A DNA stretch of 64,000 bases from Pseudoroseicyclus aestuarii (lineage in GTDB: Bacteria > Pseudomonadota > Alphaproteobacteria > Rhodobacterales > Rhodobacteraceae): NCBI RefSeq assembly GCF_003217255.1, contig NZ_QJTE01000002.1, positions 682,001 through 746,000 on the forward strand. The letters run 5' to 3'. Positions within the stretch are counted from its first letter, which is position 1. Every line of letters begins with the position of its first letter. The notes below the pieces were generated by a model. That model saw only the letters and a list, made by a program, of their open reading frames with translations. It was not told the origin of the DNA and searched no databases. The translations under genes were made by a program, and so were the position numbers. Positions 10,983 to 40,316 of the stretch are shown here, piece after piece.

Positions 10983-11851
10983 TCCAGCAGCCCGGCGCCG
11001 CGCATCGCCGCCTCGATCGCGGTGCGCACCGGCGCGCTGGGCAGCGCGAGGGGCGAGCGGACATCGGCGCTGCACAGGCCCAGCAGCGAGAGGCCGTACT
11101 TCGCCCCCACCAGACCGGGCTCGGTGAAGATCGCCTCGTGCAGCGGCATCAGCAGGTCCTGCAGGCGCAGCGCCTCGGCGTAGTCGCCCGTCAGGCTCGC
11201 CGCCTGCATCCGCGCGCAAAGCGCCGGGGCCACGTTGGCGGTGACGCTGATGCAGCCCCGCCCGCCCATCGCGTTGAAGCCGACGGCGGTCGCATCCTCG
11301 CCCGAGATCTGGACGAAGTCCGTCCCGCAGGCGATCCGCTGCCGCGCCACCCGCGCCAGATCGCCGGTCGCGTCCTTGACGCCGAAGATGCCGGGCAGCT
11401 TCGCCAGCTCGGCCATGGTCGCGACGCTCATGTCGACGGCAGAGCGGCCGGGGATGTTGTAGATCAGCACCGGCAGCCCGGCCTCGGCGGCGGCGGTGTA
11501 ATGGGCCACCAGGCCCGCCTGCGTCGGCTTGTTGTAATAGGGCGTGACGACCATCGCACCATCGGCACCGGCGCTTTTCGCGGCCTCGATCAGGCGCACC
11601 GTCTCGGCGGTGTTGTTCGACCCGGCGCCGGCGATCACCGGCACCCGACCCGCGGCATGGCGCACCACCTCGGCCACGACGGCGTCATGCTCCTCGTGGG
11701 TCAGGGTCGGGCTTTCGCCGGTGGTGCCGGCGGGCACGAGGCCGGTGGTGCCCTGCTCGATGTGCCAGTCCACCAGCCGTTTCAGCGCGCTGCGATCCAG
11801 CTGACCCCCGGTGAAGGGCGTGACGAGGGCGACGAGCGATCCCTGGATCAT
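10979..11851 (-). CDS. dapA: 4-hydroxy-tetrahydrodipicolinate synthase
   Basis: First committed enzyme of lysine/diaminopimelate synthesis: condenses pyruvate with aspartate semialdehyde. 290 aa, close to the usual 292. Active-site residues are in place: [10 protein letters not shown] (41-50, Thr44-Thr45), PYYNKPTQ (104-111), YNIPGRS (131-137, Tyr131 and Arg136) and the Schiff-base lysine in GVKDATGD (157-164, Lys159). The full canonical set separates it from the divergent relative at 21336. I chose the ATG at 11851 because the family begins [13 protein letters not shown]; the frame continues 26 codons upstream with no family resemblance. It is divergent from the lytic transglycosylase gene. 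Confidence 0.95.
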
Positions 11852-28800: not shown

Positions 28801-30063
28801 ATGTGGTCAGAGGCGATCAACCAGATGCTCCGCCAGTGGATGCGGAAGGGCGCGCTGACCCTGCATCTGCCTGACGGCACCGCCCGATCCTACGGGGACG
28901 GGACGGCGCCGCAGGTCACCCTGCGCATCCACGACGACGCGACGCTCAGGCGGCTGGCCCTGAACCCCGACCTCGCGCTGGGCGAGGCCTACATGGAGGG
29001 CAGCCTGACCGTCGACGGGGACGATCTGCACGGCCTGCTGGAGCTGGTGCTGCGCAACTTCGGCGGCGGGCGGCGCAGCTGGTGGAACCTGCCGGGGCGC
29101 TGGCTGCGCAAGGCCCGGCGCGGGCTCGACCAGCGCAACATCGCCGCCTCCTCGCGCCGCAACGTGGCGCATCACTACGACCTGCCGCCGCGGCTCTATG
29201 ACCTCTTTCTCGACGAGGACCGGCAGTATTCCTGCGCCTATTTCCGCGATCCCGGCGACGGGCTCGAGCAGGCGCAGCTGCAGAAGAAGCATCACATCGC
29301 CCGCAAGCTGCGGCTGGAGCCCGGACTGCGGGTGCTGGACATCGGCTGCGGCTGGGGCGGCATGGCCCTGACGCTGGCGCGCGATTACGGCGTGCAGGTC
29401 ACCGGCGTCACGCTGTCCGAAGAGCAGCTGAAGGTCGCGCAGCGCCGGGCGCGCGAGGAGGGCCTCGAGGACCGGGTGGAGTTCCGCCTGCAGGATTACC
29501 GCGCGGTGACCGAGACCTTCGACCGCATCGTGTCCGTGGGCATGTTCGAACATGTCGGCCTGCCGCAGTTCGACCCCTACTTCCGCGCCGTGCACGACCT
29601 GCTGGCCGAGGATGGCGTCGCTCTGGTCCATACGATCGGCTGGGCCGGCCCGCCGGGATCGACCAACCCCTGGATCGCCAAGTACATCTTCCCCGGCGGA
29701 TACATCCCCTCGCTGTCCGAGGTGGCGCCGGTGATCGAGAACAATGGCCTGTGGCTGACCGACCTCGAATGCCTGCGCCTGCACTACGCCCTGACCCTGC
29801 GGCACTGGTACGATCGCTTCACCGCGCGGCTGGACGAGGCGCGCGAGATCAACGACGAGACCTTCGTGCGGATGTGGAAATTCTACCTCGTCGCCTCGGA
29901 GCAGAGCTTCCGCTTCAACAGGCAGGACGTCTTCCAATTCCAGATCAGCAAGCGGCTGGATGCCGTGCCGATCACCCGCGACTACCTGTACCGGTCCGGG
30001 CTGGTCCCGCGGCAGGCCGAGGTCGAGACCCTCGACCGCGCGAGGGACCACGCGGCAGAGTGA
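28801..30063 (+). CDS. cfa: Cyclopropane-fatty-acyl-phospholipid synthase family methyltransferase
   Basis: SAM-dependent enzyme of 420 aa that methylates the double bond of unsaturated acyl chains in membrane phospholipids. An N-terminal lipid-binding region (TLHLPDG, ALGEAYMEGSLTVDGDDL) leads to the catalytic domain: NVAHHYDLPPRLYDLFLDED, YSCAYFRDPGDGLEQAQLQK, the SAM site LDIGCGWGGMALTLARDYGV (about 179-198), and VGMFEHVGLPQFDPYF. The ribosome-binding site is AGGGGAGAG. A related enzyme in Rhodobacter sphaeroides methylates acyl chains on the way to furan fatty acids, so this gene could be either type; the RpoE-ChrR lipid locus lies 6 kb downstream. Confidence 0.9.
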   Translation: MWSEAINQMLRQWMRKGALTLHLPDGTARSYGDGTAPQVTLRIHDDATLRRLALNPDLALGEAYMEGSLTVDGDDLHGLLELVLRNFGGGRRSWWNLPGRWLRKARRGLDQRNIAASSRRNVAHHYDLPPRLYDLFLDEDRQYSCAYFRDPGDGLEQAQLQKKHHIARKLRLEPGLRVLDIGCGWGGMALTLARDYGVQVTGVTLSEEQLKVAQRRAREEGLEDRVEFRLQDYRAVTETFDRIVSVGMFEHVGLPQFDPYFRAVHDLLAEDGVALVHTIGWAGPPGSTNPWIAKYIFPGGYIPSLSEVAPVIENNGLWLTDLECLRLHYALTLRHWYDRFTARLDEAREINDETFVRMWKFYLVASEQSFRFNRQDVFQFQISKRLDAVPITRDYLYRSGLVPRQAEVETLDRARDHAAE

Positions 30064-30161: not shown

Positions 30162-33100
30162 ATGTCAGGCATGCGATTCACCCGCCTCAGGCTGAGCGGC
30201 TTCAAGAGCTTCGTCGATCCGACGGAACTGGTCATCGCGCCGGGTCTGACGGGCGTCGTCGGGCCCAATGGCTGCGGCAAGTCCAACCTGCTCGAGGCGC
30301 TGCGCTGGGTGATGGGCGAAAGCCGCCCCACGGCGATGCGCGGCGGCGGGATGGAGGACGTGATCTTCGCCGGCGCCGCGACGCGCCCGGCGCGGCACCA
30401 TGCCGAGGTGACGCTGGTCATCGACAATACCGACCGCCTCGCCCCCGCCGCCTTCAACGATGCCGATACGCTGGACGTGGTGCGCCGCATCACCCGCGAT
30501 GCCGGCAGCGCCTACCGTGTCGGCGCCAAGGAGGCGCGGGCCCGCGACGTCCAGATGCTCTTTGCCGATGCCTCGACGGGCGCGCATAGCCAGGCGCTGG
30601 TGCGGCAGGGACAGATCGCTGAGCTGATCAACGCCAAGCCCGCGCAGCGGCGCCGCATCCTGGAAGAGGCGGCCGGCATCTCGGGCCTGTACCAGCGCCG
30701 CCACGAGGCGGAGCTGAAGCTGCGGCAGGCCGAAGGCAACCTCGCCCGCCTAGACGATACCGTCGGCGCACTGGCCTCGCAGCTAGCCTCGCTCGCGCGG
30801 CAGGCGCGGGCGGCGGCGCGCTACCGCGAGATCGGCGCCGCCCTGCGCCGGGCCGAGGCGCTGCTGCTCTGGCGGCGCTGGCACGAGGCCGGGATCGCCC
30901 TGGCCGAGGCCGAGGCGTTGCTGCGCGAGCAAGCCGCCGAAACCTCTCGCGCCGAAGGGGCCGCGCGCGCCGCCCTCTCGGCCCGGACCGAGGCCGAGAC
31001 CGCCTTGCCGCCGCTGCGCGAGGAGGATGCCGTCGCCACCGCCCTTCTGGCGCGGCTGGAGACCGAGGAAGGCACCCTGGACGAGCGCGCGCGCCGAGCC
31101 GAGGGCACGATCCGCGCCGTGACCGGGCGGCTCGACCAGATCACCCGCGACCGCGCCCGCGAAGAGGCGCTGACCCGCGATGCGGACGAGGTGATGACCC
31201 GCCTGCGCGCCGAGGGCGAGACGCTGCGCGCCGCCGGCGAGGGCCACGAGGCGCGCCTCGCCGAGGCGCAGGAGCAGGCCGTCGAGGCCGCGCGGAACCT
31301 CGAGGCCCGCGAGGCGGAGCTTTCGGAGGGCACCGAGGAGGTCGCCCGCCTCTCCGCGCGCCACCAGTCGGGCCAGCGCCTTGTGCAGGATGCGGCCAAG
31401 ACCCTCGCGCGCGAGGAGGCCGCCGCCGAGAAGGCGCGCGAGGCCGCCCGCGCCGCGCAGGACGCCGCCACCGGCGCCGAGGCCGCGATGGCGCAGGCCG
31501 GCACCCGGCAGGAGGAGGCGCAGGAAGCCCTCGCGCAGGCAGAGACCGCGCTCGAGGCGGCAGAGGCCGCGCGCGCCCAGACGCAAGGCGAAGAGGCCGA
31601 GGCCCGCTCTGCCCGCTCTGCCGCGGAGGGCGAGGCCAGCGCGCTCAAGGCCGAGGCCGCCGCCCTGTCGCGGCTGGTGGAGCGCGAGGCCGGCGCCGGC
31701 ACGCAGCTTCTCGACCGGCTCGAGGTGCATGCGGGCTACGAGGCCGCCTTGGGCGCCGCGCTGGGCGAGGATCTGCAGGCGCCCGAGATCGCGGGCGAGG
31801 GCGCCTTCGGCTGGGACGCGCTGCCCGATTACGAGGCGCCGCAGCCGCTGCCCGGCGGGGCGCGCGTGCTGGGACAGGTGGTCAACGCGCCGCCGGTGCT
31901 GGCCCGGCGCCTGGCGCAGATCGGCGTGGTCTCGCCCGAAGAGGGGGCGCGGTTGCAGGCCCTGCTGCAACCCGGCCAGCGCCTCGTCAGCGAGGCGGGC
32001 GATCTCTGGCGCTGGGACGGCTACCGCGCCTCGGCGGGCGATGCCCCCAGTGCCGCCGCCCTGCGCCTGCAGCAGTTGAACAAGCTTGCCGCGCTGAAGG
32101 ACGACGTGACGCGCGCCGAGGCGCAGGCCGATCAGGCCCGCAGCGCGCATGAGACCCTGTCGCAGCGCCTCAAGCAGCAGGCCGAGGCCGATGCCAGCGC
32201 CCGCCGCGCCCGTCGCGAGGCCGATGCCGCTGTGGCCGAGGCCGCCCGCGCGCTCTCCCGCGCCGAAAGTGACCTGACATTGGCGCAGGGCCGGCTCGAG
32301 ACCGCGCAGCTGGCCGAGGCGCGCCACGCCGAAGAGGCCCGCGCCGCCCGCACCGCCAGGGCCGAGGCCGAAGCCGCGCTGGCAGAGCTGCCCGATCTCG
32401 GGGCCGCGCGCGAGGCGGTCGAGGGGCTGCGCCGCACGGTCGAGGCCGCGCGGATCGAGACCATGTCCCGCCGCAGTGCCGAGGGCGAGCTGCGCCGCGA
32501 GGGCGAGGCCCGGACCGCCCGCGAGGCCGCGATAGCGCAGGAGCTCGCGGGCTGGGACAAGCGCCTCTCCGGCGCCTCCGGCCGGATCGAGGAGCTGACC
32601 GAGCGCGAGGTCTCTGCCCGCCGCGATCTCGACCGCGCCCAGCGCGTCCCCGGCGAGATCGCCGAGCAGCGCGAGGGCCTCGGCCAGCGTCTGGCAGAGG
32701 CAAAGGCGCGGCGCGGCGCGGGCGCCGAGGCGCTGGCCGGCGCCGAGGCTCGCCTGCGCGACGCTCTCGAGGCCGAGCGCGAGGCAGAGCGTCAGGCCGG
32801 CGCCGCGCGCGAGGCCCGCGCCCGCGCCGAGGCCCGCGCCGATGCCGCCCGCAGCGCCGTGGAGGAGGCCGCCCAGCGCAGCGACGAGGCGCTGGAGATG
32901 GCGCCCGAGGCCATCCTCGCCGCCTTCGAGGCGGAAGAGGCCGAGGTTCCCGCCATCCCCGCGCTCGAAACCGAGGCCGCGGGCCTGCGCCGGCAGCGCG
33001 ATGCGCTCGGCTCCGTCAACCTGCGGGCCGAGGAGGACGCGCAGGAGATCGCGGGCGAGCACGAGACCCTGATCCGCGAGAAAGCCGACCTCGAGAATGC

Positions 33101-33626
33101 CATCGCCACGCTGCGGCAGGGCATCGCCAGCCTCAACAGCGAGGGGCGGCAGCGGCTTCTCGATGCCTTCGAGGAGGTGAACGCCAATTTCTCGCGCCTC
33201 TTCACCCATCTCTTCGGGGGCGGCGAGGCGCGGCTGGAGCTGGTCGAAAGCGCCGATCCGCTCGAGGCGGGGCTGGAGCTTCTGTGCCAGCCGCCGGGCA
33301 AGAAGCTGCAGGTGCTTTCGCTGCTCTCGGGCGGCGAGCAGACGCTGACCGCGCTGGCGCTGATTTTCGCCGTCTTCCTCGCGAACCCGGCGCCGATCTG
33401 CGTGCTGGACGAGGTCGACGCCCCGCTGGACGATGCCAATGTCACCCGCTTTTGCGACCTGCTCGACGAGATGACCCGCAGCGCCGACACGCGCTTTTTG
33501 ATCATCACCCACCACGCGGTGACAATGAGCCGGATGGACCGCCTCTTCGGCGTGACCATGGGCGAGCAGGGCGTCAGCCAGCTCGTCAGCGTCGATCTGA
33601 AAAAGGCCGAAGCGCTGGTCGCCTGA
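30162..33626 (+). CDS. smc: Chromosome segregation protein SMC
   Basis: ATPase of 1154 aa that compacts and organises the chromosome with ScpA and ScpB. N-terminal head: LRLSGFKSFVDPTELVIAPG and Walker A GVVGPNGCGKSNLLEALRWV. Then a long alanine/arginine/glutamate-rich coiled coil (about 170-490), a compact hinge (about 500-640, GTQLLDRLEVHAGYEAALGA), a second coiled coil, and the C-terminal head with signature LSLLSGGEQTLTALALIFAV, Walker B CVLDEVDAPLDDANVTRFCD and the His switch ITHHAVTM. AAGGGCAG precedes the ATG. Length and architecture are complete. Confidence 0.97.
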   Translation: MSGMRFTRLRLSGFKSFVDPTELVIAPGLTGVVGPNGCGKSNLLEALRWVMGESRPTAMRGGGMEDVIFAGAATRPARHHAEVTLVIDNTDRLAPAAFNDADTLDVVRRITRDAGSAYRVGAKEARARDVQMLFADASTGAHSQALVRQGQIAELINAKPAQRRRILEEAAGISGLYQRRHEAELKLRQAEGNLARLDDTVGALASQLASLARQARAAARYREIGAALRRAEALLLWRRWHEAGIALAEAEALLREQAAETSRAEGAARAALSARTEAETALPPLREEDAVATALLARLETEEGTLDERARRAEGTIRAVTGRLDQITRDRAREEALTRDADEVMTRLRAEGETLRAAGEGHEARLAEAQEQAVEAARNLEAREAELSEGTEEVARLSARHQSGQRLVQDAAKTLAREEAAAEKAREAARAAQDAATGAEAAMAQAGTRQEEAQEALAQAETALEAAEAARAQTQGEEAEARSARSAAEGEASALKAEAAALSRLVEREAGAGTQLLDRLEVHAGYEAALGAALGEDLQAPEIAGEGAFGWDALPDYEAPQPLPGGARVLGQVVNAPPVLARRLAQIGVVSPEEGARLQALLQPGQRLVSEAGDLWRWDGYRASAGDAPSAAALRLQQLNKLAALKDDVTRAEAQADQARSAHETLSQRLKQQAEADASARRARREADAAVAEAARALSRAESDLTLAQGRLETAQLAEARHAEEARAARTARAEAEAALAELPDLGAAREAVEGLRRTVEAARIETMSRRSAEGELRREGEARTAREAAIAQELAGWDKRLSGASGRIEELTEREVSARRDLDRAQRVPGEIAEQREGLGQRLAEAKARRGAGAEALAGAEARLRDALEAEREAERQAGAAREARARAEARADAARSAVEEAAQRSDEALEMAPEAILAAFEAEEAEVPAIPALETEAAGLRRQRDALGSVNLRAEEDAQEIAGEHETLIREKADLENAIATLRQGIASLNSEGRQRLLDAFEEVNANFSRLFTHLFGGGEARLELVESADPLEAGLELLCQPPGKKLQVLSLLSGGEQTLTALALIFAVFLANPAPICVLDEVDAPLDDANVTRFCDLLDEMTRSADTRFLIITHHAVTMSRMDRLFGVTMGEQGVSQLVSVDLKKAEALVA

Positions 33627-33910: not shown

Positions 33911-34900
33911 CTAGGCCGCCGGCAGCGCCTCGCGCCCATGCGGCGCCATCAGGTCCAGATCGGGTCCGATGGGCACGATCCGGTGCGGGTTAATCATGTC
34001 GTGGCTGTAGTGGTAATGCCGCGTGATGTGGTCGAAATGCACCGTCTCGGCGACGCCCGGCCATTGGTAGAGTTCGCGCGTATAGGCCCAGAGGCTCGGG
34101 TACTCGATCAGCTTGCGCCGGTTACACTTGAAGTGGCCGTGATAGACCATGTCGAAGCGGATCAGCGTGGTGAACAGCCGCCAGTCGGCCTCGGTCACGC
34201 GGTCCCCCATCAGGTAGCGCTGGCCCGACAGACGCTCTTCCAGCCAGTCGAGGCTGTCGAACAGCGGATGGACGGCCTCTTCGTAGGCCTCCTGAGTGGT
34301 GGCGAAGCCGGACTTGTAGACGCCGTTGTTCACGGTGTCGTAGATGCGCGCGTTCACCGGCTCGATCGCCTCGCGCAGATCCTCTGGCCAGAAGTCCTGG
34401 GTATCCCCGGTCACGCCGTCGAAGGCGGAATTGAGCATGCGGATGATCTCGGCGCTCTCGTTCGAGACGATGGTGCCGCGCTCCTTGTCCCAGAGGATCG
34501 GCACCGTCACGCGGCCCGACATCTCCGGCGCCGCCTTGAGGTAGACGTCGCGCAGGAAGGGCAGGTCGAACTGCCGGTCACCGGTGGTGCCGGGGAACGC
34601 GGTGTCGAAGGTCCAGCCCTCGCCCAGCATGTCGGGCGAGACGACGGAGACCTCGATGTGCTCCGTCAGCCCCTTGAGGGCGCGGAAGATCAGCGCGCGA
34701 TGGGCCCAGGGGCAGGCATAGCTGACATAGAGATGGTAGCGCCCGCTCTCCGCCTTGAAGCCGCCCTCGCCCGAGGGGCCGGCACTGCCGTCGGCGGTGA
34801 CCCAGTTGCGGAACTGCGTGGTGGTGCGCTTGAAGGCGCCGCCGTTGCTCTTGGTGTCGTACCAGCTGTCGTCCCAGACGCCGTTGATCAATTGGCCCAT
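33911..34900 (-). CDS. Glutathionyl-hydroquinone reductase (Xi-class glutathione transferase, YqjG/PcpF-like)
   Basis: Cytosolic enzyme of 329 aa that removes glutathione from glutathionyl-hydroquinones. Hallmarks: WYDTKSNGGAFKR near the start, the catalytic cysteine Cys63 in YVSYACPWAHRALIFRALKG, TVPILWDKERGTIVSNESAE (glutathione site), and the long C-terminal helical domain with GDRVTEADWRLFTTLIRFD and HFDHITRHYHYSHDMINPHR. AGGAGGAAAG upstream supports the ATG at 34900. It lies just downstream of chrR on the same strand and may belong to the same oxidative-stress response. Confidence 0.93.
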   Translation of the reverse strand: MGQLINGVWDDSWYDTKSNGGAFKRTTTQFRNWVTADGSAGPSGEGGFKAESGRYHLYVSYACPWAHRALIFRALKGLTEHIEVSVVSPDMLGEGWTFDTAFPGTTGDRQFDLPFLRDVYLKAAPEMSGRVTVPILWDKERGTIVSNESAEIIRMLNSAFDGVTGDTQDFWPEDLREAIEPVNARIYDTVNNGVYKSGFATTQEAYEEAVHPLFDSLDWLEERLSGQRYLMGDRVTEADWRLFTTLIRFDMVYHGHFKCNRRKLIEYPSLWAYTRELYQWPGVAETVHFDHITRHYHYSHDMINPHRIVPIGPDLDLMAPHGREALPAA

Positions 34901-34958: not shown

Positions 34959-35624
34959 TCAGATGCCGAACAGACGCTGTGCGACGCGCGGCAGAAAGCT
35001 GTTGAAGCGCAGCCGGGCGTCGGTCGCGGCAAGGCAGATGCAGGGCGGCCCCGGCTCTGCTGTGGGCGTATGTTCAAGCGCGGGATCCGCGACCTCGATG
35101 TCGCCGGGGCCGAAGCGGCTGACCTTGTCGCTGAAGGCGCCCGACAGGACCAGCGTCAGCTCTGTACCCCTGTGGCCGTGATCTGGCACCGCGACACCGC
35201 CGGGGATCCGCAGCAGGTAGGCGCTGCCGCCGCTTCTGGTGCGAATGGGCGCCTGCGCGACGCCGCCGCCGATCCGCCGCCAGCGGATGTCCGAAAAATT
35301 CGGCCCGATCCAGTCCGACAGCGGCTGCGGCAGCGCGTCGGGGCTAGGGCGCGGCGCCTGTTCCGGCTCTGCCGGCATGGCGTGGGCGCGGGCCAGCGTC
35401 CGGGCGAGGCTTCCCTCGGCGGGACGAGAGAGCCCGCCCTCCGGCGCGGCGTCGAGCAGGGCGCCGCCCAGCGCCTCGTGCGCGGCGGCGTCGGCGCGGC
35501 AAATGTCGCAAAAGGCCAGATGCGTGGCCACGGCGAGATCCAGCGCCTCGGGCAGGGCGCCGGCGGCATGGGCCATCAGAAGGGATTCGGTCGGGTGGTG
35601 CTTGGGTTGCGCGAAGCCGGTCAT
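34959..35624 (-). CDS. chrR: Anti-sigma factor ChrR
   Basis: Zinc-binding anti-sigma factor of 221 aa that holds RpoE inactive until singlet oxygen or organic peroxide appears. The N-terminal ZAS domain has His10, His35, Cys39 and Cys42 (HLAFCDIC), with the spacing of the ligands I recall from Rhodobacter sphaeroides ChrR. The C-terminal cupin domain has His149, His151 and Glu155 (DHGHRGTELTLVLSGAF) and His185, again with identical spacing to the known zinc ligands, plus a CxC at 195-197. The start overlaps the rpoE stop by 4 bp. All expected sensing residues are present. Confidence 0.95.
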   Translation of the reverse strand: MTGFAQPKHHPTESLLMAHAAGALPEALDLAVATHLAFCDICRADAAAHEALGGALLDAAPEGGLSRPAEGSLARTLARAHAMPAEPEQAPRPSPDALPQPLSDWIGPNFSDIRWRRIGGGVAQAPIRTRSGGSAYLLRIPGGVAVPDHGHRGTELTLVLSGAFSDKVSRFGPGDIEVADPALEHTPTAEPGPPCICLAATDARLRFNSFLPRVAQRLFGI

Positions 35625-36154
35625 GACATCTCTTTTCTCAGGCGCTCCAGCGCCAGCCGCAGGCGGGACTTGATCGTGCCGAGCGGGATGCCGGTCTCGG
35701 CGGCGATCTGGCTATGCGTGAGCTCGCCGAAATAGGCCTGCTCGATCAGGTCGCGCTGGACCCGTGGCAGGCCAGAGAGGGCCTGCGCAAGCTGCGCCGT
35801 CTCCTCGCGCAGCGCGAGGACCTCGGCCTGCTCGGCCTCGGGCTCTGGTCCCCATGGCAGATCCTCGGGCTCGGGGCGGCGGGCGCGGCGAATGCCGTCG
35901 ATCCGTCGGTTGCGGGCGATGGTGAAGATCCATGTCGCCACGCTGGCGCGCCCCGGCTGGTAGAGCGCCGCCTTGCGCCAGACCGTCGCCATGACGTCCT
36001 GCATCAGGTCCTCGGCGAGGTCTGCAGTGGCGCCGCCGCGGATCAGGAAACCTTTCACGCGGGGGGCGAAATGCGCGAAGAGCCGGGCGAAGGCCGCCTC
36101 GTCGGCCGTGTCCCGGATCGCGGCAAGCTCCTGCGTCCAGTCGGCGGCTGACAT
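35621..36154 (-). CDS. rpoE: ECF sigma factor RpoE (ECF11, singlet-oxygen response)
   Basis: Sigma factor of 177 aa. Region 2: FARLFAHFAPRVKGFLIRGG, DLAEDLMQDVMATVWRKAAL and ASVATWIFTIARNRRIDGIR. Region 4: LPRVQRDLIEQAYFGELTHS and IAAETGIPLGTIKSRLRLAL, the -35-recognition helix-turn-helix. The pairing with chrR identifies it as the RpoE of the singlet-oxygen response, which turns on photolyase, lipid-modifying and quinone-protecting genes. I chose the ATG at 36154 from the conserved N-terminus; no clear ribosome-binding site is seen. It is divergent from the oxidoreductase-DUF1365-SDR operon. Confidence 0.94.
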   Translation of the reverse strand: MSAADWTQELAAIRDTADEAAFARLFAHFAPRVKGFLIRGGATADLAEDLMQDVMATVWRKAALYQPGRASVATWIFTIARNRRIDGIRRARRPEPEDLPWGPEPEAEQAEVLALREETAQLAQALSGLPRVQRDLIEQAYFGELTHSQIAAETGIPLGTIKSRLRLALERLRKEMS

Positions 36155-36287
36155 GCTCTGATGTTCGATGATCCGGTCTCCGATCCCTTGCCGTGGACCA
36201 TAGGTCAGGCGGTCACCGGCGCCAAGGCGCGGCATGATCCGGGGCGTTTCCGGAATGGCGATTGTCATGGCCAGTGCAGTCATGGAC

Positions 36288-36317
36288 AGGATACGCGGGT
36301 CTTTGCGGGCCGGATCA
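36288..36317 (-). promoter_or_regulatory. Candidate RpoE-dependent promoter of rpoE-chrR
   Basis: On the minus strand, TGATCC (36312-36317), an 18-bp spacer, then TATCCT (36288-36293). The -35 element and spacer equal the Rhodobacter RpoE consensus as I remember it (TGATCC-N18-TAAnnn); the -10 is a weaker match. It would give a leader of about 125 nt and allow autoregulation. Confidence 0.45.
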
Positions 36318-36382
36318 CCTGCCCCTGTGAACCACGGGCGGGGTCCGTCCGTAGCACTGACCATGGGTTGCCGGGAGACGAC

Positions 36383-37663
36383 ATGACTATCACGCGCAGG
36401 CGGATCGCCGTCATCGGCTCGGGCATCTCGGGGCTGGGGGCGGCCTGGCTGCTTGGCCGGCAGCACGAGGTGACGCTGATCGAGGCCGAGGACAGGCTGG
36501 GCGGTCATGCCCGCACGCGGATGGCGGGCCCGCGCGGCGATCAGCCCGTGGATACCGGCTTCATCGTCTTCAACCGCGTCACATACCCGCACCTTTGCGC
36601 GCTTTTCGACGCGCTCGAGGTGCCGGTCGAGCCCGCCGGGATGAGCTTCGGCGCCTCGATCGGCGGCGGGCAGATCGAATACGGCCTCGCCGGCCTCGGC
36701 GCGCTGCTGGCGCAGCCGCGCAACATGGCCGATCCCCGGTTCCTGTGGATGCTGCGCGATATCCTGCGGTTCAACGCCATGGCCGCGAAAGCCGCCTCCG
36801 ATCCCGCGATGACCACGGGCGAGCTGATCGCGCGGCTCGGCCTCGGGGCGCGGTTCCGCGATCACTACCTGCTGCCGCTGACCGGGGCGATCTGGTCGGC
36901 CCCGCTCGAGGGGATGCTCGAGTTTCCGGCGCAGGCGCTGATCCGGTTCCTGCAGAACCACGGGCTGATGAGCCTGCGCGGCCAGCACCAGTGGTACACC
37001 GTGACGGGCGGCAGCCGCAGCTACGTCGCCCGCCTCGAGGCGGCGCTGCGGGCGCAGGGCACGAGCATCCGCACCGGCTGCCCGGTTGCATCCGTCCGCC
37101 GCGGGCCGGGCGGCGCCGAGGTGACGATGCGCGGCGCGCGCGAAACCTTCGACGAGGTCGTCTTCGCCACCCATTCCGACGACACCCTGGCCCTGCTCTC
37201 CGATCCAACACCGCAGGAGCGGCGGGTGCTGGGCGCGATCCGCTACCGGCCCAACGACATGGTGCTGCATTCCGACCCTTCGGTGATGCCGCGGCGGCGG
37301 GCGGTCTGGTCGTCCTGGGTCTATTCGCAGGAGGGCGCGCAGAGCAGTCCGCGGATCGGCCTGACCTACTGGATGAACGCGCTCCAGCCCTGGCTGACGG
37401 AGCCGCTCTTCGTCACCCTCAACAGCCAGCGCCCGATCCGGCCCGAGCTGGTCTGGGACCGCGCCGTGCTGCGGCACCCGGTCTTCGACAGTGCCGCGCT
37501 TTCCGCGCAGCGCGAGGCGGCGGCGATGAACGGGCAGGGCGCGACCTGGTTCTGCGGCGCCTGGATGCGCTACGGTTTCCACGAGGACGGGCTGGCCAGC
37601 GCCCATGCTGTGGCCGATGGCATCGCCGCGCGCAGAGCCGCGGCGCCGCTGGCGGCGGAGTGA
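36383..37663 (+). CDS. FAD/NAD(P)-binding oxidoreductase (COG2907 amine-oxidase-like), RpoE-regulon type
   Basis: Flavoprotein of 426 aa. FAD fold IAVIGSGISGLGAAWLLGR (8-26) with the downstream LIEAEDRLGGHARTR; then FIVFNRVTYPHLCALFDALE, QHQWYTVTGGSRSYVARLEA, VVFATHSDDTLALLSDPTPQ and a C-terminal FCGAWMRYGFHEDGLASAHA. This family sits next to rpoE in Rhodobacter sphaeroides (RSP_1091), where genetic work links it to furan-fatty-acid synthesis; it probably oxidises a membrane acyl chain. The ATG at 36383 follows GGGAGA. Its stop overlaps the GTG of the next gene. Confidence 0.88.
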   Translation: MTITRRRIAVIGSGISGLGAAWLLGRQHEVTLIEAEDRLGGHARTRMAGPRGDQPVDTGFIVFNRVTYPHLCALFDALEVPVEPAGMSFGASIGGGQIEYGLAGLGALLAQPRNMADPRFLWMLRDILRFNAMAAKAASDPAMTTGELIARLGLGARFRDHYLLPLTGAIWSAPLEGMLEFPAQALIRFLQNHGLMSLRGQHQWYTVTGGSRSYVARLEAALRAQGTSIRTGCPVASVRRGPGGAEVTMRGARETFDEVVFATHSDDTLALLSDPTPQERRVLGAIRYRPNDMVLHSDPSVMPRRRAVWSSWVYSQEGAQSSPRIGLTYWMNALQPWLTEPLFVTLNSQRPIRPELVWDRAVLRHPVFDSAALSAQREAAAMNGQGATWFCGAWMRYGFHEDGLASAHAVADGIAARRAAAPLAAE

Positions 37664-38454
37664 CCGCCCCGCGCCTGCTTCGGGCCGTGACCTGGCATGG
37701 CCGGACCCCCGGCGCGGCGGAGGGGCCGGGGCGTCACGCCTTTCGCTACAGCGTCGATTACCTGCTGTTGGACCCCGAGGCCCGTTTGACCGGCCCGCGC
37801 CTTTTCGCCCGCAACCGTCCCGCGCCCGTCGCGCTGCATGACGCCGATCACGGCGGCCTGCCGGGGCAGGGGCAGGGGGCGCCCTGGGCGCGGGCGGTGC
37901 TGCGCGATCACGGTGCGCCCGCCGGGCTGCGGCTGGAGCTTCTGGCACAGCCGCGGGTCTGGGGCCATGTCTTCAACCCGGTCAGCTTTTGGCTGGCGCG
38001 CGACGGCGCAGGCGCCCTGCGCGCCGTGATCGCCGAGGTCACGAATACCTACGGCGACCGCCATTCCTACCTGTGCCGCCGGGACGGCTGGGCCGCGATC
38101 GGCCCCGGGGACCGGATCGAGGCCCGCAAGCTCCTGCATGTCTCGCCGTTCCAGCCGCTGGACGGGACCTATACCTTCGGCTTCGACATCACGCCCGGGC
38201 AGGTGCGGATCGTCATCGCCTATGCCCGCGCGGAGGGCGGCGGCATGACCGCCACGCTGGAGGGGCCGCTGAAGCCGCTGACCACCCGCCGCCTGGCCTG
38301 GTCGCTGCTGCGCCGCCCCTTCGGCTCGCGCCGGGTGCTGGCGCTGATCCACTGGCAGGCCCTGCGCCTGTGGCTTCGCGGGGCGCGCTTTCGCCCGCGC
38401 CCCGCGCCGCCGCGCGGGGAGGTCAGCGGAACGGGCCCCGGGGGAACCGGCTGA
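37660..38454 (+). CDS. DUF1365 domain-containing protein
   Basis: Protein of 264 aa made of one DUF1365 domain (COG3496): HAFRYSVDYLLLDPEARLTG, the key RVWGHVFNPVSFWLARDGAG, IAEVTNTYGDRHSYLC, KLLHVSPFQPLDGTYTFGFD and LTTRRLAWSLLRRPFGSRRV. It starts with GTG in a GTGA overlap with the oxidoreductase gene, so the two are translationally coupled. DUF1365 proteins regularly travel with COG2907 and CFA-synthase-like genes; the R. sphaeroides counterpart (RSP_1090) is also implicated in furan-fatty-acid production. Biochemical role unproven here. Confidence 0.87.
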   Translation: MTAPRLLRAVTWHGRTPGAAEGPGRHAFRYSVDYLLLDPEARLTGPRLFARNRPAPVALHDADHGGLPGQGQGAPWARAVLRDHGAPAGLRLELLAQPRVWGHVFNPVSFWLARDGAGALRAVIAEVTNTYGDRHSYLCRRDGWAAIGPGDRIEARKLLHVSPFQPLDGTYTFGFDITPGQVRIVIAYARAEGGGMTATLEGPLKPLTTRRLAWSLLRRPFGSRRVLALIHWQALRLWLRGARFRPRPAPPRGEVSGTGPGGTG

Positions 38455-38498
38455 CTAGCGCTAGGTTAGTCCCTGAAGCATCTTGAGGGGAGTGGGTC

Positions 38499-39236
38499 GT
38501 GCGCGACTGGACGGGCAAGCGGTACTGGATCGTCGGGGCGAGCGAGGGGCTGGGCCGCGCATTGGCCAAGCGCATCAGCGGCGCCGGCGCGCATGTCATC
38601 CTTTCGGCGCGCACCCGCGACCGCCTCGACGATCTGGCGGCAGAGCTGCGCGGCCCCTCGGAGATCCGCCCCGTCGATGTTGCCGACCGCGCCGCCGTCG
38701 AGGAGGTCGCGCGGGGCCTTGGCGAGATCGACGGCATGGTGTTCCTGGCCGGGCTCTATTGGCCGATGGCCGCGACCGACTGGGACGCCGCCCAGGCCGA
38801 GCAGATGGCCGACGTCAATTTCACCGGCGCGCTGCGCACCGTCGGTGCCGTTCTGCCGGGCATGCTGCGCCGGGGCTCTGGGCATATCGCGCTGACGGGG
38901 TCCATCGCGGGCTACAGGGGGCTGCCGGGGGCGATCGGCTACGGCGCCTCGAAGGCGGCGGTGATGTCGCTGGCCGAGAGCCTGCACTACGACCTGCGGC
39001 GCACGCCGGTCGAGGTGCAGCTGGTGAACCCGGGATTCGTGCGCACCCGGCTGACCGATAAGAACGATTTCGCCATGCCGGGCATCATGGATGCCGAGGA
39101 GGCGGCGCAGCTTTATTTCGAGCATTTGAATGCCGGCGGCTTCCAGCGCAGCTTTCCCCTGGCCATGGCCACTGCCCTGCGGGCCACGCGGCTGCTGCCC
39201 GAGGCCCTGTATCATCGTATTTTTCGGGGTCGCTGA
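38499..39236 (+). CDS. SDR family NAD(P)-dependent oxidoreductase
   Basis: Short-chain dehydrogenase of 245 aa. Cofactor motif WIVGASEGLGRALAKRIS (10-27), the FLAGLY and DVNFTGALRTVGA segments, catalytic Ser in ALTGSIAGYRGLPGAIGYGA and the YxxxK of YGASKAA. The start is GTG with GAGGGGAG upstream. It lies 44 bp after the DUF1365 gene in the RpoE-linked operon; a similar SDR occurs near this locus in R. sphaeroides. It may reduce a ketone or aldehyde formed during acyl-chain modification. Confidence 0.88.
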   Translation: MRDWTGKRYWIVGASEGLGRALAKRISGAGAHVILSARTRDRLDDLAAELRGPSEIRPVDVADRAAVEEVARGLGEIDGMVFLAGLYWPMAATDWDAAQAEQMADVNFTGALRTVGAVLPGMLRRGSGHIALTGSIAGYRGLPGAIGYGASKAAVMSLAESLHYDLRRTPVEVQLVNPGFVRTRLTDKNDFAMPGIMDAEEAAQLYFEHLNAGGFQRSFPLAMATALRATRLLPEALYHRIFRGR

Positions 39237-39488: not shown

Positions 39489-40316
39489 ATGAAAGCCAAG
39501 AACATCTTCGTCCTCGCGACGATCTCCAGCTTCGTGGCCGGCGCGGCCATGGCTCAGTCCCCGGTCTTCTCGAACGAGGACCTCGCCGAGGACCAGATCG
39601 AAGACCTGCAGGACGATATCGAAGACGACTTCGAGCGTGAGACCTACACCTATGCCGCCGACGGTGGCATGCCGACCGGCTTCACCGGTTCGGTCGCCGG
39701 TCGCGCCACGCTGACCAACGGCAACACCGACAACCAGGACGCCGGTGTCGGCGCCTCCTTCGGCTACTATGACGGCCTGAACGGCCACAAGGTGCAGCTG
39801 AGCTACACCTACTCCGAAGTGAACAACAACACCTCCGACAACTCGCTCGTCGCCAGCTACGACTACACCCGCGACCTGACCCCGCAGGTCTATGGCTTCG
39901 TCAAGGCGATCGCGGTCTACGACGAGTTCGACAGCTACGAAGAAGACTACTTCGTCGGCGCCGGCCTCGGCTACCGCGTGTTCAGCTCGGCCGACGTGCA
40001 GTGGGCCGTGCAGGCTGGCCCCGGCTACCGCTGGACCAAGAACCAGAACGGCGACGAGGAAGAGGAAGCCGCGCTGAACGTCAGCTCCGACTTCTTCTAC
40101 CGGATCAACGAGACCGTTGCGATGACCAACGACACCGAGATCCTGTACTCGGACAGCAACACCTACGTCACCAACGACTTCGGCGTGAACTACTCGATGA
40201 CCGACGCCCTGGCCCTGCGTGCCAGCGTCCTGACCGAGTACAACACCGATCCGCTGCCGGGCTTCGACGACACCGACAACCAGTTCGGCCTGTCGGTCGT
40301 CTACAACTTCAACTGA
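39489..40316 (+). CDS. DUF481 family outer-membrane protein
   Basis: Predicted outer-membrane beta-barrel of 275 aa. Signal peptide residues 1-22 (AMA-QS), a short acidic segment (SNEDLAEDQIEDLQDDIEDD), then alternating amphipathic strands rich in Gly, Tyr, Asn and Asp (GSVAGRATLTNGNTDNQDAG, VGAGLGYRVFSSADVQWAVQ) and a terminal FGLSVVYNFN ending in aromatic residues as barrels do. It matches the salt-induced DUF481/YdiY family. It is acidic and Asn-rich compared with its neighbours. GAAAGGG lies 9 bp before the ATG; a strong terminator follows. Confidence 0.87.
   Translation: MKAKNIFVLATISSFVAGAAMAQSPVFSNEDLAEDQIEDLQDDIEDDFERETYTYAADGGMPTGFTGSVAGRATLTNGNTDNQDAGVGASFGYYDGLNGHKVQLSYTYSEVNNNTSDNSLVASYDYTRDLTPQVYGFVKAIAVYDEFDSYEEDYFVGAGLGYRVFSSADVQWAVQAGPGYRWTKNQNGDEEEEAALNVSSDFFYRINETVAMTNDTEILYSDSNTYVTNDFGVNYSMTDALALRASVLTEYNTDPLPGFDDTDNQFGLSVVYNFN

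Follow-up and report, generated by a model that had tools for sequence, protein, structure and literature searches.

A predicted sigma-E/ChrR switch beside furan fatty-acid genes in Pseudoroseicyclus aestuarii

Introduction

Would a bacterium in which no photosynthetic reaction centre is detected sense singlet oxygen, and would it respond by making furan fatty acids? The question is raised by five genes of Pseudoroseicyclus aestuarii (Rhodobacteraceae) at positions 34959-39236 of a 64,000-nucleotide stretch of contig NZ_QJTE01000002.1 (assembly GCF_003217255.1, positions 682,001 to 746,000), hereafter the window, where a sigma factor gene (rpoE) and a gene for a ChrR-type anti-sigma factor are divergent from an oxidoreductase gene, a DUF1365 gene and a short-chain dehydrogenase/reductase (SDR) gene. 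An earlier note on this DNA had read them as a singlet-oxygen and membrane-lipid locus. PMC6852236 describes a conserved core regulon that unites rpoE-chrR with genes for furan fatty acids, while the UfaD and UfaO steps of furan fatty-acid synthesis are described in PMC7380195, where UfaM, UfaD and UfaO together are predicted, from plasmid expression, to suffice for the furan fatty acid 9M5-FuFA. Here we find that the locus is very probably a sigma-E/ChrR stress switch of the standard kind, linked to the making of furan fatty acids, a reading to which whole-length matches of ChrR and RpoE, a promoter pair, a layout shared by most related loci, the co-occurrence of ChrR with UfaD and a photolyase-linked UfaM-like gene all point.

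Results

The locus joins an ECF11-type pair to UfaD- and UfaO-type genes

The genes and coordinates given in the earlier note proved correct when checked against open frames and domains (Table 1). On the minus strand the end of rpoE overlaps the start of chrR by 4 bases, and the pair is divergent from ufaD-ufaO-SDR on the plus strand, where the GTG start of ufaO overlaps the ufaD stop and the SDR gene begins 44 bases 3' of ufaO. An extracytoplasmic function (ECF) sigma gene followed by the gene of a ChrR-type zinc anti-sigma factor is the order expected of an ECF11 sigma-E/ChrR pair, and UfaD- and UfaO-type genes, typed by domain and by homologues in related loci, lie side by side as the furan pathway would have them. 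The earlier assignment to rpoE-chrR and to the RSP_1091 and RSP_1090 types (UfaD and UfaO) holds, and both the promoter pair and a UfaM-like gene on another contig add weight to it. The description of an oxidoreductase-DUF1365-SDR operon holds for these three genes and does not extend to the full five-gene RSP_1091-1087 set, the middle genes of which are absent from this locus.

Table 1 Genes and predicted promoters of the locus (positions in the window)
Feature	Position	Strand	Predicted role or motif	Basis
chrR	34959-35624	-	Zinc anti-sigma factor: anti-sigma domain at the N terminus, cupin domain at the C terminus	TIGR02451; alignment to 2Z2S chain B
rpoE	35621-36154	-	ECF sigma factor, ECF11 type	Sigma70_r2 and Sigma70_r4; alignment to 2Q1Z chain A
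Predicted sigma-E promoter of rpoE-chrR	36292-36317	-	TGATCC-N16-CGTA	Rank 1 in 64 kb, 23.5 bits
Predicted sigma-E promoter of the ufaD operon	36328-36353	+	TGAACC-N16-CGTA	Rank 2 in 64 kb, 15.2 bits
ufaD (RSP_1091 type)	36383-37663	+	FAD-dependent desaturase of methyl-branched fatty acyl chains	Amino_oxidase/NAD_binding_8
ufaO (RSP_1090 type, DUF1365)	37660-38454	+	Furan-forming step	PF07103, 210.7 bits
SDR gene (RSP_1087 type, 245 aa)	38499-39236	+	GTG start	adh_short, 139.5 bits

ChrR keeps the zinc ligands of both domains

ChrR exceeds the cut-off of the TIGR02451 anti_sig_ChrR model (189 against 124.5 bits) and also matches Pfam Cupin_7. The best PDB matches of RpoE and ChrR are 2Q1Z and 2Z2S, the R. 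sphaeroides entries, with identities of 112/174 to the sigma factor (2Q1Z chain A) and 116/200 to ChrR (2Z2S chain B). In the alignment to 2Z2S all eight zinc-ligand positions are kept, which bears out the claim that the ligands of the N-terminal and cupin domains are conserved throughout: H6, H31, C35 and C38 of the N-terminal domain correspond to H10, H35, C39 and C42 here, and H141, H143, E147 and H177 of the cupin domain to H149, H151, E155 and H185 (H6, H31, C35, C38, H141 and H143 are the residues that we take to be zinc ligands in that numbering). Cysteines C187 and C189 of 2Z2S are likewise found, as C195 and C197. Residues E147, H177, C187 and C189 of ChrR are named in PMC6852236.

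Relatives share the layout, with a variable middle

A scan of named genomes with ufaD gave at least 587 confirmed places, the best 80 of which were taken as loci; their ufaD identity is 54-64% over the best segment. The rpoE-chrR pair is divergent from ufaD in 76 of these 80 loci, ufaO stands directly 3' of ufaD in all 79 in which it was found, and 75 hold an SDR homologue. Measured between match ends, the ufaO-SDR gap is at least 1600 bases in 56 of the 75 loci with both genes and below 200 in only four (L010, L011, L065 and L070); in L001 it is occupied by MFS and DUF3833 genes.

The locus of R. sphaeroides 2.4.1 (RSP_1092-1093/RSP_1091-1087) is like the present one in gene order, divergence, ChrR ligands and ufaD-ufaO adjacency. 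It differs in having an MFS gene (RSP_1089) and a DUF3833 gene (RSP_1088) between ufaO and the SDR gene, where none stands here; the DUF3833 protein of L001 finds no match in this genome, although it finds itself in its own. Single deletions of RSP1087, 1088 and 1089 are reported in PMC7380195 to have left the fatty-acid profile of R. sphaeroides unchanged, and RSP_1089-1087 homologues, according to a passage of PMC3818230, are absent in more distant Rhodobacteraceae and vary within the family. PMC7074977 (section 3.3) describes the layout as conserved in many Rhodobacteraceae and as absent from the phototroph R. capsulatus.

A predicted sigma-E promoter pair lies between the two operons

The promoter motif was taken from the spaced word pair that recurs most often in the rpoE-ufaD intergenic stretches of 76 of the 80 loci; left out were L011, where rpoE-chrR is placed otherwise, L013 and L026, with none found in the stretch, and L029, on a 3.4-kb contig. 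This pair, TGATC-N17-CGTA reading towards rpoE, occurs in 72 of the 76 relatives, and a matrix built from those 72, with the window excluded, was used to score each strand of the 64 kb (the rpoE-side scores of these 72 relatives are high by construction). The two best sites of the window are precisely those between rpoE and ufaD (Table 1). The site upstream of rpoE is clear and gives the sigma gene a predicted promoter of its own, as expected of an ECF11 pair, a judgement made by sequence only. The ufaD-side site differs from TGATCC by one change and draws much of its apparent weight from its position; sites on the ufaD strand, which lay outside the training of the matrix, reach at least 12 bits in 45 of the 76 relatives. 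A figure legend of PMC3818230 places an RpoE promoter before both R. sphaeroides operons, in line with the predicted pair.

Two other sites were set aside as chance matches. The third-ranking site of the window (30461, minus strand, 13.5 bits, 1.7 bits below rank 2) lies within an open frame of SMC-like type (30162-33626). The other, of 14.3 bits, is downstream of ufaM, at 11039 of the ufaM stretch of this genome (L086). Scores of 13-16 bits can therefore arise where no promoter is likely.

A UfaM-like methylase is encoded beside a photolyase gene

CMAS has five matches in this genome of 3.44 Mb, estimated as 100% complete: two are strong, at 311.4 bits and 283.8 bits, and three are weak. The 283.8-bit match, on contig C1, is a UfaM-like gene directly 3' of a DNA photolyase gene; judged by this match, by its neighbour and by its place in the tree below, it is the UfaM-type methylase of the furan pathway. 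The order resembles RSP_2143-2144 of R. sphaeroides: a table of PMC7074977 places RSP_2143 (phrA) and RSP_2144 (cfaS) within the RpoE regulon, and the strain table of PMC7380195 equates ufaM with RSP2144. In R. palustris (RPA2569-2571, PMC7380195) UfaD, UfaO and UfaM types are all present, as in this genome, but ufaM is part of the ufaD operon, whereas here the UfaM-like gene follows the photolyase gene on another contig.

In a methylase tree of 27 rows, computed from match segments and with a bootstrap that had not settled, the C1 protein belongs to a 12-row family group (100/99) inside a large UfaM-like group; the methylase that the relative L075 encodes between its ufaO and SDR genes falls in the same large group. 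The other strong CMAS match is a second lipid methylase gene, in the window and of the cyclopropane fatty-acid (CFA) synthase type (28801-30063, plus strand, ~6 kb from the locus; CMAS 310 bits in the domain search of the window), the product of which scores 540.6 bits against the CPFASynBruc model, below its cut-off of 600. The tree places this protein elsewhere, among three rows that group at 100/100, and because of that separation from the UfaM-like proteins it was rejected as the methylase of the pathway.

Among ten fetched relatives of the C1 group, four (L147-L150) have the photolyase gene next to ufaM, no more than ~0.1 kb off; it lies 0.7-1.3 kb away in L146 and L151, and is ~2.2-2.5 kb away in L152, L153, L157 and L158. 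Upstream of the ufaM start in this genome none of the eight best sites of L086 exceeds 3.2 bits, a result to be read with the caution that a matrix derived from rpoE sites could miss variants. Six genomes, this one and L147-L151, have the photolyase start and more than 700 bases upstream of it; a sigma-E-like site precedes the photolyase gene in one of them, L148, where a 23.5-bit site is immediately upstream. In L149 a 15.7-bit site directed at ufaM lies within the photolyase gene. The stretches of the remaining relatives (L146, L152, L153, L157 and L158) do not reach that far upstream of the photolyase gene, and the best site in them scores 10.7 bits, on the other strand.

The system is common with and without a reaction-centre gene

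A search of this genome for Photo_RC, the sole phototrophy marker used (bch genes and rhodopsin were not searched for), gave no match, which extends to the whole genome, for that marker, the earlier statement that no photosynthesis gene is present in the window. The earlier note implied some surprise at a singlet-oxygen locus without photosynthesis genes, and this part of the claim did not survive a survey of the family in which 295 genera were each represented by a single genome, the genomes not being independent of one another. ChrR was found in 255 genomes, 240 of them over the cut-off and the other 15 picked by E-value; UfaD, at an E-value of 1e-60 or better, in 251; and Photo_RC in 121, genomes not listed being counted as absent. 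ChrR over the cut-off occurs in 108 of the 121 genomes with Photo_RC and in 132 of the 174 without it, UfaD in 115/121 and 136/174, and both together in 108/121 and 128/174. ChrR over the cut-off and UfaD agree in 276 of the 295 genomes (both in 236, neither in 40), only one of the two being present in 19. Phototrophs are thus somewhat richer in the system, yet most genomes without Photo_RC carry it, so a locus without a reaction centre is not unusual.

A passage of PMC6852236 reports that the ChrR system spans photosynthetic and non-photosynthetic species in earlier genome sets. With a larger sample, the present counts pose again a question that has been raised in print, namely which source of singlet oxygen, or which other signal, keeps the system in heterotrophs; the genome described here adds one more in which no reaction-centre gene is matched while the gene sets for sigma-E-ChrR and for furan fatty acids are intact. 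Since the arrangement is the usual one in the family, with or without photosynthesis, the locus is genuine but ordinary, a further case of a well-documented type. The conserved core regulon is matched and only lineage-level detail differs; the local traits are small, being the compact operon without RSP_1089/1088-type genes and the lack of a detected sigma-E-like site before photolyase-ufaM.

Discussion

By analogy with R. sphaeroides and R. palustris, from which we infer the enzyme reactions, the turnover of ChrR and the signal, the zinc domain of ChrR would keep RpoE inactive until singlet oxygen, perhaps via oxidised lipids, led to the degradation of ChrR, a process in which UfaD/UfaO and DegS/RseP-like proteases take part in R. 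sphaeroides. The freed RpoE would transcribe rpoE-chrR and, from the divergent promoter, ufaD-ufaO-SDR. The UfaM-like methylase, encoded elsewhere, would turn vaccenoyl chains of phospholipids into 11Me-12t-18:1, which UfaD would convert to 11Me-10t,12t-18:2 and UfaO to 9M5-FuFA, a scavenger of singlet oxygen, with UfaD and UfaO feeding back on ChrR turnover. PMC3818230 reports that full activation of RpoE requires RSP_1090 and RSP_1091, and ChrR turnover RSP_1090. That this strain senses singlet oxygen may fairly be inferred from these likenesses.

The same switch and enzymes could instead serve a different main signal, be it organic hydroperoxides, metals or UV-A, and singlet oxygen would then be a minor one. 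This is possible, though unlikely. The Caulobacter system, cited in PMC6852236 as predicted by a comparison, responds also to organic hydroperoxide, cadmium and UV-A, and the genome studied here has no Photo_RC match; however, the same paper has that system activated fast by singlet oxygen as well as by organic hydroperoxides, other inducers acting more slowly. Two further features argue for singlet oxygen. The cupin domain kept here is reported as required for the singlet-oxygen response but dispensable for the inactivation of ChrR by tert-butyl hydroperoxide (t-BOOH; PMC6852236), and ufaD and ufaO are kept, where deletion of RSP_1090 impaired the response to singlet oxygen and not that to organic peroxide (PMC3818230). 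Conservation of E147 and H177 cannot discriminate between the signals, because both residues are reported as needed for either (PMC6852236). It is far less probable that ufaD-ufaO-SDR makes another modified lipid by way of the CFA synthase of the window: the proximity of that gene and the common occurrence of DUF1365 and FAD genes near CFA-type genes would speak for it, but the tree sets the protein apart from the UfaM-like group, including the L075 methylase, and the genome has a photolyase-linked UfaM-like gene.

A variant within the sigma-E/ChrR switch concerns ufaM, which might be constitutive and outside the sigma-E regulon, so that sigma-E would gate only the UfaD and UfaO steps through a stripped three-gene operon. 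We regard this as doubtful, given the site directed at ufaM in L149 and the photolyase-ufaM distance of ~0.7 kb in L151. If it were true, membranes would always hold the methylated precursor and stress would rapidly turn this pool into furan lipids.

Several points weigh against the proposed coupling of the switch to furan fatty-acid synthesis. No sigma-E-like site is seen before photolyase-ufaM here; the ufaD site is TGAACC, and its 15.2 bits are little above the 13.5 bits of the best chance-like site in the window; UfaD, UfaO and UfaM are typed by domain, gene order and tree position rather than against the R. sphaeroides proteins or locus; and the whole case, expression and lipids included, is read from DNA and protein comparisons. 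The regulon may also differ from that of R. sphaeroides, because neither photolyase-ufaM nor the rpoH-like genes are accompanied by a detected sigma-E-like site. The RpoH model gives five matches in the genome, one of them over the cut-off, and the stronger three (C1:513403, C2:593515 and C1:618489) have no sigma-E-like site above 5.7 bits within ~1.5 kb on either side, whereas rpoHII of R. sphaeroides belongs to the RpoE regulon (PMC7074977).

Other sigma-E-like sites and neighbouring genes

A strict promoter pattern, of which the rpoE site is an exact match, occurs at 7 places in the genome and at 0 in the control; allowing one mismatch gives 853 places against 151. The six strict sites beyond rpoE score 23.4, 20.5, 15.6, 13.2, 12.7 and 8.5 bits, and of three whose surroundings were inspected two are without a clear target. 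The third, the 20.5-bit site (L155 2630-2664, plus strand, contig C3), lies 23 bases upstream of a DUF2177 membrane-protein gene, which is a candidate member of the regulon. The 23.4-bit site, as strong as that of rpoE (L154 3058-3092, minus strand, contig C1 near 970063-970088), is flanked by a tRNA-Gly gene and by what resembles, by eye and with no search made, a gene for a fasciclin-type protein; it points away from the latter, with no clear gene downstream, and might perhaps drive a small RNA. The RpoE regulon of R. sphaeroides includes a fasciclin gene, RSP_1409 (PMC7074977).

A search for phytoene/squalene synthases gave three matches in the genome, carotenoid and hopanoid types not being told apart. 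Beyond the SDR gene, at a distance of ~250 bases, lies a DUF481 gene (39489-40316, plus strand), for which no homologue was found in the 80 relatives' loci at an E-value of 1e-10. On the other side, a glutathione transferase-type gene (33911-34900, minus strand, start picked by eye) begins 58 bases beyond chrR, in the same orientation, and could share a transcript with it; homologues occur in the loci of two of the 80 relatives (L008 and L023), several kilobases off and on the opposite side.

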